Shown here: positions 30,172-58,322 of the stretch, piece after piece | Layout of the letters: every line of letters begins with the position of its first letter | How positions within the stretch are numbered: the stretch's first letter is position 1 | Assembly: GCF_011764425.1 (NCBI RefSeq) | Contig: NZ_BLPF01000003.1 | Location: forward strand, 1,364,001 to 1,428,000 | Length of the DNA stretch: 64,000 bases | Direction of reading: 5' to 3' | DNA from: Phytohabitans houttuyneae | GTDB lineage: Bacteria; Actinomycetota; Actinomycetes; Mycobacteriales; Micromonosporaceae | Notes under the pieces: model-generated | Told to the model about the DNA's origin: nothing | What the model saw: the letters and a program-made list of their open reading frames with translations, nothing else | Databases searched by the model: none | Translations under genes and position numbers: made by a program

Positions 30172-30251
30172 GGCCGTCCTCGCTTCGCTGCGGGCGACCA
30201 TGAGGCACCACAGGCGCTGAGCCCGATGATTCGCTCGCTCCGCTCGCTCAT
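30168..30251 (-). CDS. Short upstream frame coupled to the TetR gene, overlapping a dispersed GAGCG-type repeat
   Basis: 27 codons (MSERSERIIGLSACGASW...) with a strong GGAGGAAAC ribosome site, ending in an ATGA overlap with the inferred TetR start. The DNA consists of two GAGCGNAGCGA blocks about 40 bases apart and resembles the 99-bp repeats in the injection-system genes (SERSER, EERSDE). It may be a leader peptide or simply a repeat that landed here and supplied a start site. Confidence 0.4.
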   Translation of the reverse strand: MSERSERIIGLSACGASWSPAAKRGRP

Positions 30252-53861: not shown

Positions 53862-55876
53862 GCCGTACCTCCGGGGCTCACCGGGACGAGCAGCGGCCGG
53901 GCCGGCCAGGGCAGCGCGTGGGGGCGCAGCGGCTGGTCGGCGCACGGCGGTGCGGCGACGCCGTCGACGACGAGGCGGAGCCTCGGCACGGCGCGTACCC
54001 CCGGGACGGCGAGCAGGCGCCGCACCAGCGTCACGTAGCGGATCGGGGCGCCGAACGGGTGGTCGCCGCGCACCGGGTGCAGGTAGGTGGTCAGGTCGTC
54101 GGCGGCGCGGGCGAGCACGCCGGCGCGTTCGCGGGCCGGGTCGAGCACGAGCCACGCCTCGACGGCCACCCGCTGGTACCGCGGCGCCCCGGCGGCGACC
54201 CGCACCCCGGCGGGCGCGGCGACGGCGGTGAGGTGGTCGGCGACCGCGCGGAGCGTGCGCTGGTCCGGCACCGGCGGCTGGTCGGACTCCGTGGCGGCCG
54301 GCCCGCCGGGCACGACGAGCACGCCGACGACGCCGGGCTGCGGGACGCCGAGGCGGGCGGGGTCGAGTCCGGGTACCCCGTGTGCGCGGGCGACCAGCGC
54401 GCCGGGCGCGCGGAGGGCGAGCAGCGCGTAGTCCGCCGGGGTGACGGCCCGGCCGCGGGCGGCGAGCTGCTCGGGGCCGCGGCGCAGGGTCTCGGCGACC
54501 GGCTCGGCGTCGGCGCCCGGATCGGCCGGAAACGGGTTTGTCACGCCGGTCACGAAGGCCAGCGAGGTGACCAGCGACGTCACCTGCCCGGCGCGGACAC
54601 CGCCGGCCGCGCCGCCGCCGACGCGGTAGCTCTCGGCCATGACGTTGCGGAAGCCGAGCGGGACCCGGGCGCCGTTGACGCCGTCGCCGAAGGTGAGCTC
54701 GCCGGTCGCGTGCGCCACCGTGAAGACGCGCTCGTCCAGCCCGCACCCGGCCAGGCTCGGCACCTCCCGCCACCGGGTCGGCGCCAGGGTGGTCGTGCCG
54801 AACACGTCGCCTTCGGCGTCTCCCTCGACCGCGACGACGACGCTGCCCGGCACGATCGGGACCTGGGTGAGGCGCATCCGGGTACGGCCGTCGGCGGGTC
54901 CACCTTGGACGGTCTGGGGCACCTCGTCGCGGACCGTGCGCACGGCGGTGGAGGGCACCAGGTTGAGCCGCACGGACGCCACCAGCGGCGGCACCGCGAA
55001 GGCGCCGTGCGCGACGGTCACCCGCAGCCACCGCAGCTCGGGCAGCGGGCGCGGGCCCGGCGGGCGGGCCGGGCGCCACGTGCGCGGCAGCCGCAGCTCG
55101 ACGACGCCGGAGGCGGTCAGCCCTCCGGTGCCGTCGCGGGAGACCTCGGCGGGCAGGTAGCGGCCGCCGTCCAGGATCTCCCACCGCAGCAGGGGCGCGG
55201 GCGGCGCGCCGGGTCCGGCGAGGACCAGGCCGATGGAGAGCAGCGGGTACGGTGCGGCGCCGCCGGCCAGCCCGATCCACAGCGCGTTGCCGGGGCGGGG
55301 ACGGGCGCCGAACGCGGCGAACGGCCGGCCCTGCCCGCTCGCGGCGCCGGGTACCAGGGCGAGCCGGTCCGACTCGGCGACGGCGACCGCGCCGAGCGTT
55401 GCCGGCGTGGCGTAAAGGTCCCGCTCGGTCTCGAAGACGACCTGCTCGCCGGGGGCGCTCGCGGTACCCGGCGCGGGTGCGGCGCTGGCCTGGAAGCCGG
55501 CCGGCACGAGCACCGACTCGCCGCCGGGCGGGGTCACGGTGAACTGGAGCAGCGCGGTCGCGGGCGTGGCCGGCAGCGGTCGTACGCCGGCGATGCCGAG
55601 GTGCGCGGCGAGCAGCTTCTCCGGCAGCCGGTTGAGGCGGCGCAGCACCGGCTCGGCCTGCGCGCCGAAGAGGCGCACGAGCGCGACGCCGGCGTCGGCG
55701 CGGTCCGGGTTGGTCCAGTCCGGCGTGTACGCGGGCAGCCGCCGCGCGATCTCCGCCCGCACCCGCTCGCGGGTCGCCTCGACGAGCTCCGGCTGCCCGC
55801 CGCTCGGCCCCGGCCCGGGCACGCCGCGGGCCTCCCCGCCCGCGGCGGCCCGCTCCCACCACACCGCGTCGCTCAT
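53858..55876 (-). CDS. eCIS baseplate J-like protein (Afp12-like)
   Basis: 672 residues. The opening PAYTPDWTNPDRADAGVALVRLFGAQAEPVLRRLNRLPEK and the middle GELTFGDGVNGARVPLGFRNVMAESYRVGGGAAGGV are standard for baseplate J-like wedge proteins of contractile systems. AVTPADYALLALRAPG and the C-terminal VRYVTLVRRLLAVPGVRAV-like strand complete the pattern. With the next gene it probably makes the two wedge subunits that form the baseplate ring. ATGA overlaps occur on both sides. Confidence 0.9.
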   Translation of the reverse strand: MSDAVWWERAAAGGEARGVPGPGPSGGQPELVEATRERVRAEIARRLPAYTPDWTNPDRADAGVALVRLFGAQAEPVLRRLNRLPEKLLAAHLGIAGVRPLPATPATALLQFTVTPPGGESVLVPAGFQASAAPAPGTASAPGEQVVFETERDLYATPATLGAVAVAESDRLALVPGAASGQGRPFAAFGARPRPGNALWIGLAGGAAPYPLLSIGLVLAGPGAPPAPLLRWEILDGGRYLPAEVSRDGTGGLTASGVVELRLPRTWRPARPPGPRPLPELRWLRVTVAHGAFAVPPLVASVRLNLVPSTAVRTVRDEVPQTVQGGPADGRTRMRLTQVPIVPGSVVVAVEGDAEGDVFGTTTLAPTRWREVPSLAGCGLDERVFTVAHATGELTFGDGVNGARVPLGFRNVMAESYRVGGGAAGGVRAGQVTSLVTSLAFVTGVTNPFPADPGADAEPVAETLRRGPEQLAARGRAVTPADYALLALRAPGALVARAHGVPGLDPARLGVPQPGVVGVLVVPGGPAATESDQPPVPDQRTLRAVADHLTAVAAPAGVRVAAGAPRYQRVAVEAWLVLDPARERAGVLARAADDLTTYLHPVRGDHPFGAPIRYVTLVRRLLAVPGVRAVPRLRLVVDGVAAPPCADQPLRPHALPWPARPLLVPVSPGGTA

Positions 55877-57819
55877 GTCCCCACCCCGATCGTGACCCCG
55901 GACAGTGCGGGCAGTTCGCCGCGGCGCAGCGGGACGTCCGCGCAGTCGACGGCGGGCGGCGCGCCGTCCAGCCCGACCGCGACCGCGGCGACCCGCGCCG
56001 TGTCGCCGGCCGCCGCCTGCGCCACCCGCAGCAGCGCGGACGGGTGCAGCGGGCCGCCGAACGGCCACCCGTCCCCGTCGTCGCCGCCGGTGAGCGGGTC
56101 GAGGTAGCCGCGCAGCGCCTCCTCCAGTGCGGACCGGACGCGGCCCGGGTCGCTCGGCTTGTCGGCGAGGTCGACGCGGAGGGCGGCGGTGCGGTAGCGG
56201 GGGCGGCACACGTACAGCTCGGTGCCGATGAGCCGGGCCCGCTCCAGGTGCCGGCGCACGGCGGCGAGCATTCCCGGGTCGGGCCGCGGGGCGGGCACAC
56301 CGGTCACCGCCGGCACCACCCGCACGACGACGGCGCCGGGGACGGTGGTGCCCGGGTAGCCGGGGTGCTCGCCGATGCCCACATAGGACCGTCCGACGGC
56401 GACACCGGGCGTACCGGCGGCCAGCTCGGCGAAGTCGGCCGCGGTGACCGCGCGGGTCACCCGGGTCAGCTCCTCGGCCGCGCGGCGGCGGGCCTCGTCG
56501 ACGGTCTCCGCGTCGCGACCGCCCGCCGCCGGTACGACGTTCGCCGCGCCGGCGCCGCCGGCCGGTCGCCCGGCCACCCACCAGTTGTCCGTGCGCCCGC
56601 CGTTGCCCGCCGCTCCCCCACCGCGCCGGTACTCCACCTCGACGACGGGCCCGGGGCTCATCTTGTCGCGCTCGCTTCGCTCGCTGAAGGCCCCGGGCAG
56701 CCGCCGCCATCCGGCCTCGTCGCTGCGCTCCTCGGACCGGATCCCGACGGCCCCGGGACCGTCGAGGTCGTCGTGCACGGGGACGGCGCCGGTGAGGCCG
56801 TCGCCGAAGCGGAGCGCGCCCTCGGCGCGGTCGAGCACGAACACCGGGTCGCCGGGGCCGGCGAACGTCAGGTCCGGCGCCGCCGACCACACCTGTACCG
56901 CGCCGCGCCGGCGCAGCCGCAGCTCGGCGTCGAGCAGCACGCCCCGCGCGCCGGGCAGGTCGAGGTGCTGGCCGGGCAGGCGCAGCCACCGGGTGAGCTG
57001 GTCGCGCAGGTCGGCGTCGGTGACGGTGCGGGTCTCCCGCTGCCGCGCGATGCCGGTGTTGGGCACGAGCTGGCGCAGCACGGGCGGCGCCGCGTACGTC
57101 GAGGCGCGGGTGGCGACGGTGAGCGGGCCCTCGGCGGGCAGCTCCAGCCGGACGATCCCGGACCGGCGCAGCCCGGCCGTGCCGTCGTCCACAAGGGACC
57201 ACGACCACGACAGGTCGGCCGGCGGCCGCACGCCGCGGACCGCGTCGGGGCTCCACTGTGGCGGGACGCCGGCGGGCGTGTCGAGGTCGAACAGCAGCGA
57301 CACCACCGTGCCGGGCGGCGGCGCGGCGCCGTCGAAGGCGACGTCCACCCGGAACGAGGCGGCGTCGCCACCGGCCGGCAGCAGCGGCACGCCGCGCCCG
57401 GCGCGCAGGTCGGCGCCGCGGTCCCGGCCGCCAGCCCACACGGTCACGTCCCGCACCGGCGCGACGGTCACGTCCTCGTCGAGCGTGAACGTGAGCTGTT
57501 CGAGCGGGTCGCGGGTGAACACGGTGCCGGCCGGCGCCGAGCCGGTGAGCCGCAGCACCGTGGCCGCCGGTACGGCCGGGGCGGGACCGGGCACGCCGAG
57601 CAGCCGCAGCACCGCGACCACCAGCGCGTCCGGCACCTGGTCCAGGCGGTACAGGCGCTGTTCGAGCAGGTACGCGAGCAGCTCCAGGACGGTCACGCCG
57701 GGGTCGGCGGGCGCGTGCAGCGTCCACGCCCCGCCCGACTCGGCGGGGATCCGCTGCCGGGTCGCCGTCATCAGCGCGTCCCAGGTCAGGTCGTCCAGGC
57801 GGGGCAGCGGCACCGTCAC
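55873..57819 (-). CDS. eCIS baseplate J-like protein (Afp11-like) with an inserted 33-codon repeat
   Basis: 648 residues. Wedge features are WTLHAPADPGVTVLELLAYLLEQRLYRLDQVPD at the start, GALRFGDGLTGAVPVHDDL in the middle, and AVTAADFAELAAGTPGVAVGRSYV and LRGYLDPLTGGDDGDGWPFGG later. Residues 354-386 (GPGAVGIRSEERSDEAG ... SERSERDK) are encoded by a 99-bp repeat that also lies in the neighbouring gp25 gene, where it is read in another frame. It sits between DDLD and MSPGPVVEVEYR, in the loop after the conserved block. Start GTG overlaps the gp25 stop (GTGA). Confidence 0.9.
   Translation of the reverse strand: MTVPLPRLDDLTWDALMTATRQRIPAESGGAWTLHAPADPGVTVLELLAYLLEQRLYRLDQVPDALVVAVLRLLGVPGPAPAVPAATVLRLTGSAPAGTVFTRDPLEQLTFTLDEDVTVAPVRDVTVWAGGRDRGADLRAGRGVPLLPAGGDAASFRVDVAFDGAAPPPGTVVSLLFDLDTPAGVPPQWSPDAVRGVRPPADLSWSWSLVDDGTAGLRRSGIVRLELPAEGPLTVATRASTYAAPPVLRQLVPNTGIARQRETRTVTDADLRDQLTRWLRLPGQHLDLPGARGVLLDAELRLRRRGAVQVWSAAPDLTFAGPGDPVFVLDRAEGALRFGDGLTGAVPVHDDLDGPGAVGIRSEERSDEAGWRRLPGAFSERSERDKMSPGPVVEVEYRRGGGAAGNGGRTDNWWVAGRPAGGAGAANVVPAAGGRDAETVDEARRRAAEELTRVTRAVTAADFAELAAGTPGVAVGRSYVGIGEHPGYPGTTVPGAVVVRVVPAVTGVPAPRPDPGMLAAVRRHLERARLIGTELYVCRPRYRTAALRVDLADKPSDPGRVRSALEEALRGYLDPLTGGDDGDGWPFGGPLHPSALLRVAQAAAGDTARVAAVAVGLDGAPPAVDCADVPLRRGELPALSGVTIGVGT
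56662..56760 (-). repeat. 99-bp intragenic repeat, copy A
   Basis: Aligns without gaps to 57937-58035 over 99 bases with about 14-15 differences. Both copies contain GCTCGCTNCGCTCGCTGAAGG and GTCGCTNCGCTCCTCGGAC. It is exactly 33 codons here, in the frame that gives EERSDE and SERSER. Confidence 0.8.
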
Positions 57820-58322
57820 GAGACACCCCTCACGAGACCGAGGTAGTACGGGAAGACGAGGTTGGCGCGGGTGTTGGTGCGCCGGATCCGGTACGTGACG
57901 GAGACCGTGACCACGCCCTCCTCGCCGGGTGCTCCGCTTGTTGCGCTCGCTCCGCTCGCTGAAGGCTCCGGGAGACCGGCGCCATCCGACCTCGTCGCTA
58001 CGCTCCTCGGACTGGATCCCGCCGGTCCCGGGGCCACCTCGGCGCGCACCTCGTCCAGCTCGACCCGCGGCTCGAACTGGCGCACCGCGTCCCGGATCGA
58101 GTCCTCCAGGTCGTGCAGGTTCTGCACGCTGTCCGGGGCGAAGACGAGGTCGGGGGCGCGGGTGCCGAAGTCGGGGCGCATGACCCGCTCGCCGAGCCCG
58201 GTCAGCAGCAGGGCGCGCAGGCAGTGGGCGATGCTCTCCTCGCCGCTGGCGTAGGGCAGCCGCCCGGCCTCGTCCGGCAGGATCGGGAAGCGCCAGCCGG
58301 TACCCAGAAAGTCGTCGTTCAC
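57816..58322 (-). CDS. eCIS gp25-like baseplate protein (Afp9-like) with an inserted 33-codon repeat
   Basis: 168 residues, while gp25/GPW proteins are normally about 130-140. The family core is GTGWRFPILPDEAGRLPYASGEESIAHCLRALLLTGLGERVMRPDFGT, then the C-terminal VTVSVTYRIRRTNTRANLVFPYYL. Between EVRAEV and GEEGVVTVSV lies a Ser/Ala/Pro/Gly-rich stretch (about 95-130) encoded mostly by the 99-bp repeat; removing 33 codons gives the normal length. gp25 joins the sheath to the baseplate wedges. GTG start; overlaps by GTGA on both sides. Confidence 0.9.
   Translation of the reverse strand: MNDDFLGTGWRFPILPDEAGRLPYASGEESIAHCLRALLLTGLGERVMRPDFGTRAPDLVFAPDSVQNLHDLEDSIRDAVRQFEPRVELDEVRAEVAPGPAGSSPRSVATRSDGAGLPEPSASGASATSGAPGEEGVVTVSVTYRIRRTNTRANLVFPYYLGLVRGVS
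57937..58035 (-). repeat. 99-bp intragenic repeat, copy B
   Basis: Second copy of the element at 56662-56760, same orientation, same length. Here it is read one base out of phase from copy A, as GPAGSSPRSVATRSDG ... SASGASAT. Confidence 0.8.

Follow-up and report, generated by a model that had tools for sequence, protein, structure and literature searches.

We describe a 102-bp repeat found twice in a 64,000-nt stretch of the Phytohabitans houttuyneae genome (assembly GCF_011764425.1, contig NZ_BLPF01000003.1, positions 1,364,001 to 1,428,000; hereafter the window, with coordinates counted from its first base). The repeat is very probably a small non-autonomous mobile element that forms a hairpin and has spread through the genus Phytohabitans, landing within and between genes. 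The two window copies lie in adjacent minus-strand genes of an injection-system cluster, which belong to different protein families: a Baseplate J-like protein of 648 aa (55873..57819; PF04865, E 3.5e-15) and a gp25-like baseplate wedge protein of 168 aa (57816..58322; GPW_gp25, PF04965, E 1.4e-20). Below we describe the two copies, the empty counterparts of other copies in congeneric genomes, the distribution and fold of the element, its placement in genes and its target sites, and then weigh alternative explanations.

An initial annotation of the window had reported a gap-free 99-base repeat, about 85% identical, at 56662-56760 and 57937-58035. This is borne out: without gaps, the two stretches agree at 86 of 99 bases, and the similarity extends to 56649-56760 and 57924-58035 (95 of 112 identical). 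A DNA search of the same genome with copy 1 recovers copy 2 at an E-value of 4.2e-28, and two occurrences of the core pattern CCTCGTCGCTNCGCTCCTCGGA (allowing three mismatches) lie in the window, where 0.01 are expected. The GC content of the two matches is 0.76 and 0.74. The annotation was right that the stretch is in frame in both genes, but its length of 33 codons has to be amended, as the natural repeat unit is 102 bp, or 34 codons, and not 99. Copy 1 occupies 56658..56759 of the J-like gene (model match R1, 56648-56766, 116 bits) and copy 2 occupies 57933..58034 of the gp25-like gene (model match R1, 57923-58041, 113 bits), both on the minus strand. The translations bear out the proposed one-base offset between the reading frames: copy 1 is read in element frame +0 (...GIRSEERSDEAGWRRLPGAFSERSERDK...; EERSDE...SERSER in the J-like protein) and copy 2 in frame +1 (...SSPRSVATRSDGAGLPEPSASGASAT...; SSPRSVATRSDGAG in the gp25-like protein).

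Homologues of both host proteins lack the stretch. Three of the closest homologues of the gp25-like protein are 134 residues long, the protein itself 168; the surplus of 34 residues, which the annotation had put at about 33, is the element. The stretch is missing from all 10 aligned gp25 homologues and from all seven actinobacterial J homologues, the eighth J homologue (Paraburkholderia) having unrelated sequence at that place; the check proposed with the annotation, a search for orthologues carrying the same stretch, thus did not speak against insertion. J homologues were also compared in four further genomes of the family, with a clean gap in G110 and G163 and no element in G149. In the J homologue of G123 (L255) the residues that flank the element in the window are separated by about 900 nt of a different sequence, in which the element has no match. 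The AlphaFold model of the gp25-like protein, with a mean pLDDT of 76.5, shows the insert as a loop of low confidence lying between strands 87-97 and 137-146. No J homologue was found in the five congeners at E <= 1e-40, which suggests that both window insertions happened in this lineage; the injection-system cluster was probably acquired or retained in it alone. Each window copy is closer to another genomic copy (identity 0.889 and 0.870) than the two are to each other (0.844), as independent insertions into the gp25 and J genes would lead one to expect.

In-frame insertion is seen directly in other genes, through empty sites in congeners. In-phase copies occur in pyrD, pheT, ligD, an aftD-like and a panB-like gene, and in genes for a nonribosomal peptide synthetase, a cytochrome P450, an aminotransferase, a family 9 glycoside hydrolase (GH9) and a transporter. 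Five of the genes with in-phase elements, chosen as recognisable, were traced into the congeners, and each has at least one empty counterpart: the pyrD, pheT and ligD copies are each present in one genome and absent from five congeners, the aftD-like gene has two close empty homologues (a third, G004, 46% identical, was left out of the length measurement) and the panB-like gene has one. A copy in the intergenic region upstream of pheT likewise has five empty congeners, with flanks 75-96% identical. Six sites in all, five genic and one intergenic, are hence filled in one species and empty in congeners. Comparing filled with empty sites gives a net gain of exactly 102 nt in 21 of 23 cases (ligD 5/5, pyrD 5/5, pheT 4/5, aftD-like 2/2, panB-like 1/1, intergenic 4/5), the aftD-like, panB-like and intergenic lengths being derived from alignment positions. 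Because 102 nt are 34 codons, the recipient gene stays in frame whichever frame the element is read in. In G002, pheT (L230) has a locally divergent stretch with an 89-nt spacing and is split into open frames of 246 and 676 aa, by a frameshift or a sequencing error.

Further copies, the other check proposed with the annotation, are numerous. The 99-mer has at least 48 matches (E <= 10) in its own genome by a DNA search that scored 40 of 181 first-look candidates and may have missed copies. A covariance model built on 22 copies gave 42, 3, 49, 14, 42 and 37 matches (E <= 0.1) in six Phytohabitans genomes, where weak matches near E 0.1 may be due to chance. Among 200 genomes of the family, the model found matches in the six Phytohabitans genomes and in one of the 194 others, G071; per genome, these searches scored 150 candidates in the Phytohabitans search and 18 in the family search, which used stricter filters, and copies may have been missed. 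G071 belongs to another genus of the family and has four matches, two of them in tandem (L249, L250). By DNA search of 61 genomes (the own genome and 60 relatives), long matches are confined to the six Phytohabitans genomes, and 11 other genomes have only short matches of 22-60 nt. No element match was found in plasmid and phage records, and the Rfam 15 covariance models gave 0 matches at E up to 10 when the window copies alone were submitted (window 56400-58300). We found no description of the element in open-licence papers, in which the element's own strings were likewise unmatched.

The element forms a long hairpin with a GNA mini-hairpin as its cap, and a second GNA mini-hairpin follows. 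The structure was drawn by hand from folds of aligned copies, using a MAFFT alignment (A2) of 64 copies chosen by score and completeness. In these copies 89.7% of the cells are paired, compared with 83.7% in shuffled alignments and at most 43% when the structure is slid along the alignment; changes on both sides of a pair occur in 102 cells versus 32.7 after shuffling, and none of 500 shuffles was as high on either measure, though shuffling ignores the relatedness of the copies and the covariation signal may be inflated. Covariation thus shows the hairpin to be conserved. GNA-loop hairpins with G-A mismatches make up both the tip (GGAGCGNAGCGAC) and the second hairpin (GCGAGCGNAGCGAGC) and are nearly invariant; helix 3 (the first of them) is paired in 99.5% and helix 4 (the second) in 96.5% of the cells. 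GNA loops are unusually stable. In copy 1 the first mini-hairpin, at the tip of the long stem (GGAGCGCAGCGAC, helix 3), lies at 56719..56731 and the second (GCGAGCGAAGCGAGC, helix 4) at 56670..56684; the structure alignment places them at 57994..58006 and 57945..57959 in copy 2, all on the minus strand.

Some variations on the basic unit were also observed. The locus L157 (G000:C1:1208842-1209437) is a tandem array of six head-to-tail copies with a period of 101, which account for six of the 48 own-genome matches, and at L014 / L158 the segment between the hairpins is itself duplicated within a copy (CCTCAGCGAGCGGGG twice). The annotation had further noted that a block of the repeat recurs at 30231. 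The string GCTCGCTNCGCTCGCT is indeed present at 30233-30248, but as an element copy it was rejected (15.1 bits, E 0.47 by the model). The block at 30231-30248 is the start of a minus-strand open reading frame (ATGAGCGAGCGGAGCGAGCG, N-terminus MSERSERI) and has only the GNA hairpin motif in common with the element.

The placement of copies relative to genes was analyzed at loci of four of the six genomes (G000, G002, G003, G005), covering part of the matches. Removal of duplicates and locus-end cases reduced 157 profile hits to 113 elements, and merging of arrays gave 93 sites. Coding frames were called with a codon model that placed 494 of 500 test pieces, these being taken from its own training reading frames and so not independent; a model trained on GC at third codon positions (GC3) alone called wrong frames (341/500) and was dropped. 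Same-strand coding sequence was called on both flanks of 39 of the 113 elements, and in 28 of the 39 the flanks are in phase (25 sense, 3 antisense). The sense copies are read in frames +0 (12), +1 (12) and +2 (1). For eight of the 11 out-of-phase elements, a candidate start codon lies no more than 4 nt from the upstream stop, as where two genes meet (for example, a stop at 129 and an ATG at 128). At L008, L003, L004, L020, L171, L207, L192 and L150 the element sits just before the stop of the upstream gene, with the next candidate start at most 4 nt away.

Genic copies are biased in orientation. When one rule is applied to both strands of the 93 sites, a gene continues through the element in the sense direction at 31 and in the antisense direction at 4 (p 3.5e-6); both flanks are coding and in phase at 26 sites, 23 sense and 3 antisense (p 8.8e-5), and at 18 sites no coding flank was called. 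Element frames +0 and +1 are mostly free of stops and both are used in genes. Stop codons occur in 12 and 13 of the 113 copies in sense frames +0 and +1, and in 10 and 17 copies in antisense frames -1 and -2; stop codons do not account for the bias. It could reflect selection on the peptide or the mRNA, or transcription-coupled insertion. Removal of the insert by RNA splicing, or its bypass by the ribosome, seems unlikely because genic copies are in phase and open.

The ends of the element bear possible traces of a target duplication. At the intergenic site, GACCCGGGG is present once in the five empty congeners and on both flanks of the element in the filled genome, with 9 bp identical. At pheT, the empty congener G005 has GACCCGGGGCT at the position where the element starts, so targets can resemble the element end. 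Across 45 single copies (of the 64 aligned ones, arrays and rows gapped at the right end being left out), left-end columns 2-10 match the corresponding right-end columns in 242 of 405 comparisons versus 216.1 after shuffling (0/5000 shuffles as high). The preceding column window has a slight excess (130 vs 120.7; 387/5000) and the following window none, and among 12 other offsets only 109 stood out (17/1000). The excess comes from columns 2 and 4-8, mainly 4 and 7. Our reading is that the target is duplicated over about 5 to 9 bp and that the duplication has decayed in many copies. A 9-bp duplication is not claimed for all copies: within-element identity is 0.60-0.71 in columns 3-8, and the claim was dropped because the excess over other copies is about zero from column 9. 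Duplication tests based on the longest common substring were swamped by tandem arrays, and the column test was used instead. In the window, candidate decayed duplications follow the 3' ends of both copies on the minus strand: GCCCCGGGC at 56649..56657, which agrees at 7 of 9 positions with the first nine bases of copy 1 (GTCCCGGGG), and GCACCCGGC at 57924..57932, to be compared with GCCCCGGGA.

Taken as a mobile element, the repeat would be moved by an enzyme encoded elsewhere, which would cut GC-rich targets and leave a short target duplication. Inserted copies would be translated as 34-residue loops and tolerated in turns, as modelled for gp25, and copies that shift the frame, stop the gene or lie antisense would mostly be purged by selection. 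Several observations weigh against this account. No mobilising enzyme was found: a Y1 transposase was sought in the six genomes, and no systematic search for a parent insertion sequence was made. Only one of six single copies folds better than shuffled sequence, and the GNA hairpins, being nearly invariant and without both-side changes in either helix, contribute no covariation. The 28 in-phase elements include the L202 locus twice and L213, where the frame stops at the element. Two net lengths deviate, 97 for pheT against G002 and 105 for the intergenic site against G004, and in some tandem arrays the period is 99 to 101. One site has a clean target duplication, the evidence elsewhere being statistical; the left and right ends differ at ligD and pyrD, and over all copies left-end similarity is uncorrelated with right-end similarity (Spearman 0.01). 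The terminal inverted repeats are weak, about 6 bp (GCTGGC/GCCAGC in the A2 consensus).

An alternative is that the element is a classical miniature inverted-repeat transposable element (MITE), mobilised by a DDE transposase that the same genomes encode and duplicating about 5 to 9 bp of its target; this is possible, though less likely than not. In its favour are the duplication at the cleanest site and in the statistics of the 45 copies, as well as the short GCTGGC/GCCAGC ends; on the other side stand the shortness of these inverted ends, the difference between left and right ends at ligD and pyrD, and the fact that no parent insertion sequence was seen, none having been systematically sought. 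Spread without a dedicated enzyme, through template switching during replication from hairpin repeats to end-like GC-rich targets or back, seems to us unlikely: targets do resemble element ends at pheT and the intergenic site, copies form head-to-tail arrays, and an internal arm of the element is complementary to the site-specific arm, but the near-constant 102 nt and the target duplication would fit an enzyme better. Dispersed hairpins and tandem pairs also recall palindromes of the repetitive extragenic palindromic (REP) or bacterial interspersed mosaic element (BIME) type, moved by a REP-associated tyrosine transposase (RAYT, of the Y1 type). This origin is very improbable, as the transposase domain PF01797 was detected in none of the six Phytohabitans genomes while the control was positive in 5 of 14 named genomes, and the unit of about 102 bp exceeds the 20-40 bp given for REPs (PMC3733652). 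Finally, the idea that two related baseplate proteins simply inherited a shared stretch of coding sequence can practically be dismissed, even though both genes lie in one injection-system cluster and the stretch is open in both, since it is read in different frames in different protein families, is absent from homologues, and turns up again in many unrelated genes as well as in intergenic DNA; the dispersed copies, the homologues without the stretch and the empty sites in congeners all side with the annotation's preference for insertion over common protein ancestry.

One feature of the mobile element was unexpected and deserves separate discussion. The outer left arm of the hairpin, on the insertion side, varies with the site, and its partner is the internal right arm, which comparisons among copies place at 56687..56699 in copy 1 and 57962..57974 in copy 2 (minus strand). 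The two arms pair in 80.5% of cells versus 72.2% after shuffling and have 41 both-side changes versus 14.9 (0/500 shuffles each); the number of base pairs with both-side changes is ordinary (7 versus 5.6; 112/500). We compared 75 copy pairs, not independent of one another, whose inner stems and GNA modules share at least 95% identity. Within these pairs the right arm (columns 69-76) is only 0.64 identical, close to the values for the insertion-side arm (0.63) and for the right end (0.67). Identity in the modules is 0.94-0.98, but these were used for choosing the pairs; the fair comparison is with unselected stem columns, which give 0.85 (12-16), 0.83 (17-19), 0.91 (57-63) and 0.90 (8-11). Over 63 copies, one of a site-sharing pair having been dropped, right-arm similarity tracks that of the left arms (partial Spearman 0.234, 0/300) more than that of the bodies (0.078). 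The G071 copies (L249, L250) have a very different outer arm, GCACCGAGGC, with its exact complement inside.

These data raise the tentative and, in our judgement, rather doubtful idea that the internal arm of each copy is tailored to its own site, either guiding target choice by pairing or being copied from the target at insertion. In the latter case the product would read target, hairpin, inverted target copy, tail, target. Against tailoring, when right arms are ranked for a given left end, the copy's own arm comes within the top five in 23 of 63 cases (median rank 9), and there is mispairing in several copies whose bodies are near consensus. A comparable arm signal would also arise from selection on the hairpin or from mutational perfection of palindromes. 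The tail columns 97-105 are variable as well (0.54). If the idea is true, the element would incorporate its target in inverted form, or find it by pairing, while adding whole codons, and would represent a new mode of gene invasion that leaves the genes unbroken.

The annotation had likened the repeat to Rickettsia palindromic elements (RPEs), and the likeness holds for behaviour, not as membership in that group. According to published accounts, RPEs and their Wolbachia counterparts (WPEs) are stem-loops of 100-150 bp that occur between genes and within genes without breaking the frame, in exposed regions of proteins (PMC2229807, PMC10969869, PMC3767692); codon-adding RPEs were reported in 2000, as cited in the reference list of PMC2229807. 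The Phytohabitans element is a covarying palindrome of 102 bp found in frame within genes and also between them, and is compared with RPEs by behaviour and not by sequence. The two even share a host gene, as a table in PMC3767692 assigns RPE-7 to pheT. They differ in that Rickettsia orthologues, according to that source, carry inserts at the same loci, whereas the Phytohabitans sites are empty in congeners. The Phytohabitans element further differs in its actinomycete host, its GC-rich sequence, its net length of 102 nt (21/23), its two GNA mini-hairpins, its variable site-matching arm and its tandem arrays.

Other small repeats were compared by their descriptions. Cod-2 of Corynebacterium diphtheriae is described as a 32-bp repeat that occurs in various genes of one genome and encodes frame-dependent peptides (PMC2267715); though much shorter than 102 bp, it is an actinobacterial genic repeat read in different frames, so on that description such repeats are not new to the phylum. 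The enterobacterial repetitive intergenic consensus (ERIC, RU-1) and the Neisseria NEMIS/Correia elements are, according to PMC2229807, about 100-130 bp long with open frames that fuse to genes; they resemble the Phytohabitans element in size and gene fusion but come from other phyla and have terminal inverted repeats with TA at the ends (table in the same source). Stop/start junctions are among the sites of the Phytohabitans copies too, a likeness to the mycobacterial interspersed repetitive units (MIRUs) that is drawn from placement, with no sequence comparison behind it. MIRUs are small actinobacterial units, often in tandem and oriented with genes, that lie mainly at stop/start junctions and not within conserved domains.

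In sum, an actinomycete genus carries a mobile palindrome that is neutral to the reading frame, that has sites standing empty in congeners and that may have an arm tailored to its site. To our knowledge, the mechanism by which RPEs move is still open. This is partly because orthologues there are reported to carry their inserts at the same loci (PMC3767692). In Phytohabitans, six congeneric genomes with filled and empty sites (pheT, pyrD) make the net length and the target measurable. The copies may mislead annotation, since the same peptides recur in unrelated proteins. They also amount to a naturally occurring set of unrelated proteins with 34-residue insertions, and the frame-neutral length suggests how such an element persists in a gene-dense genome.

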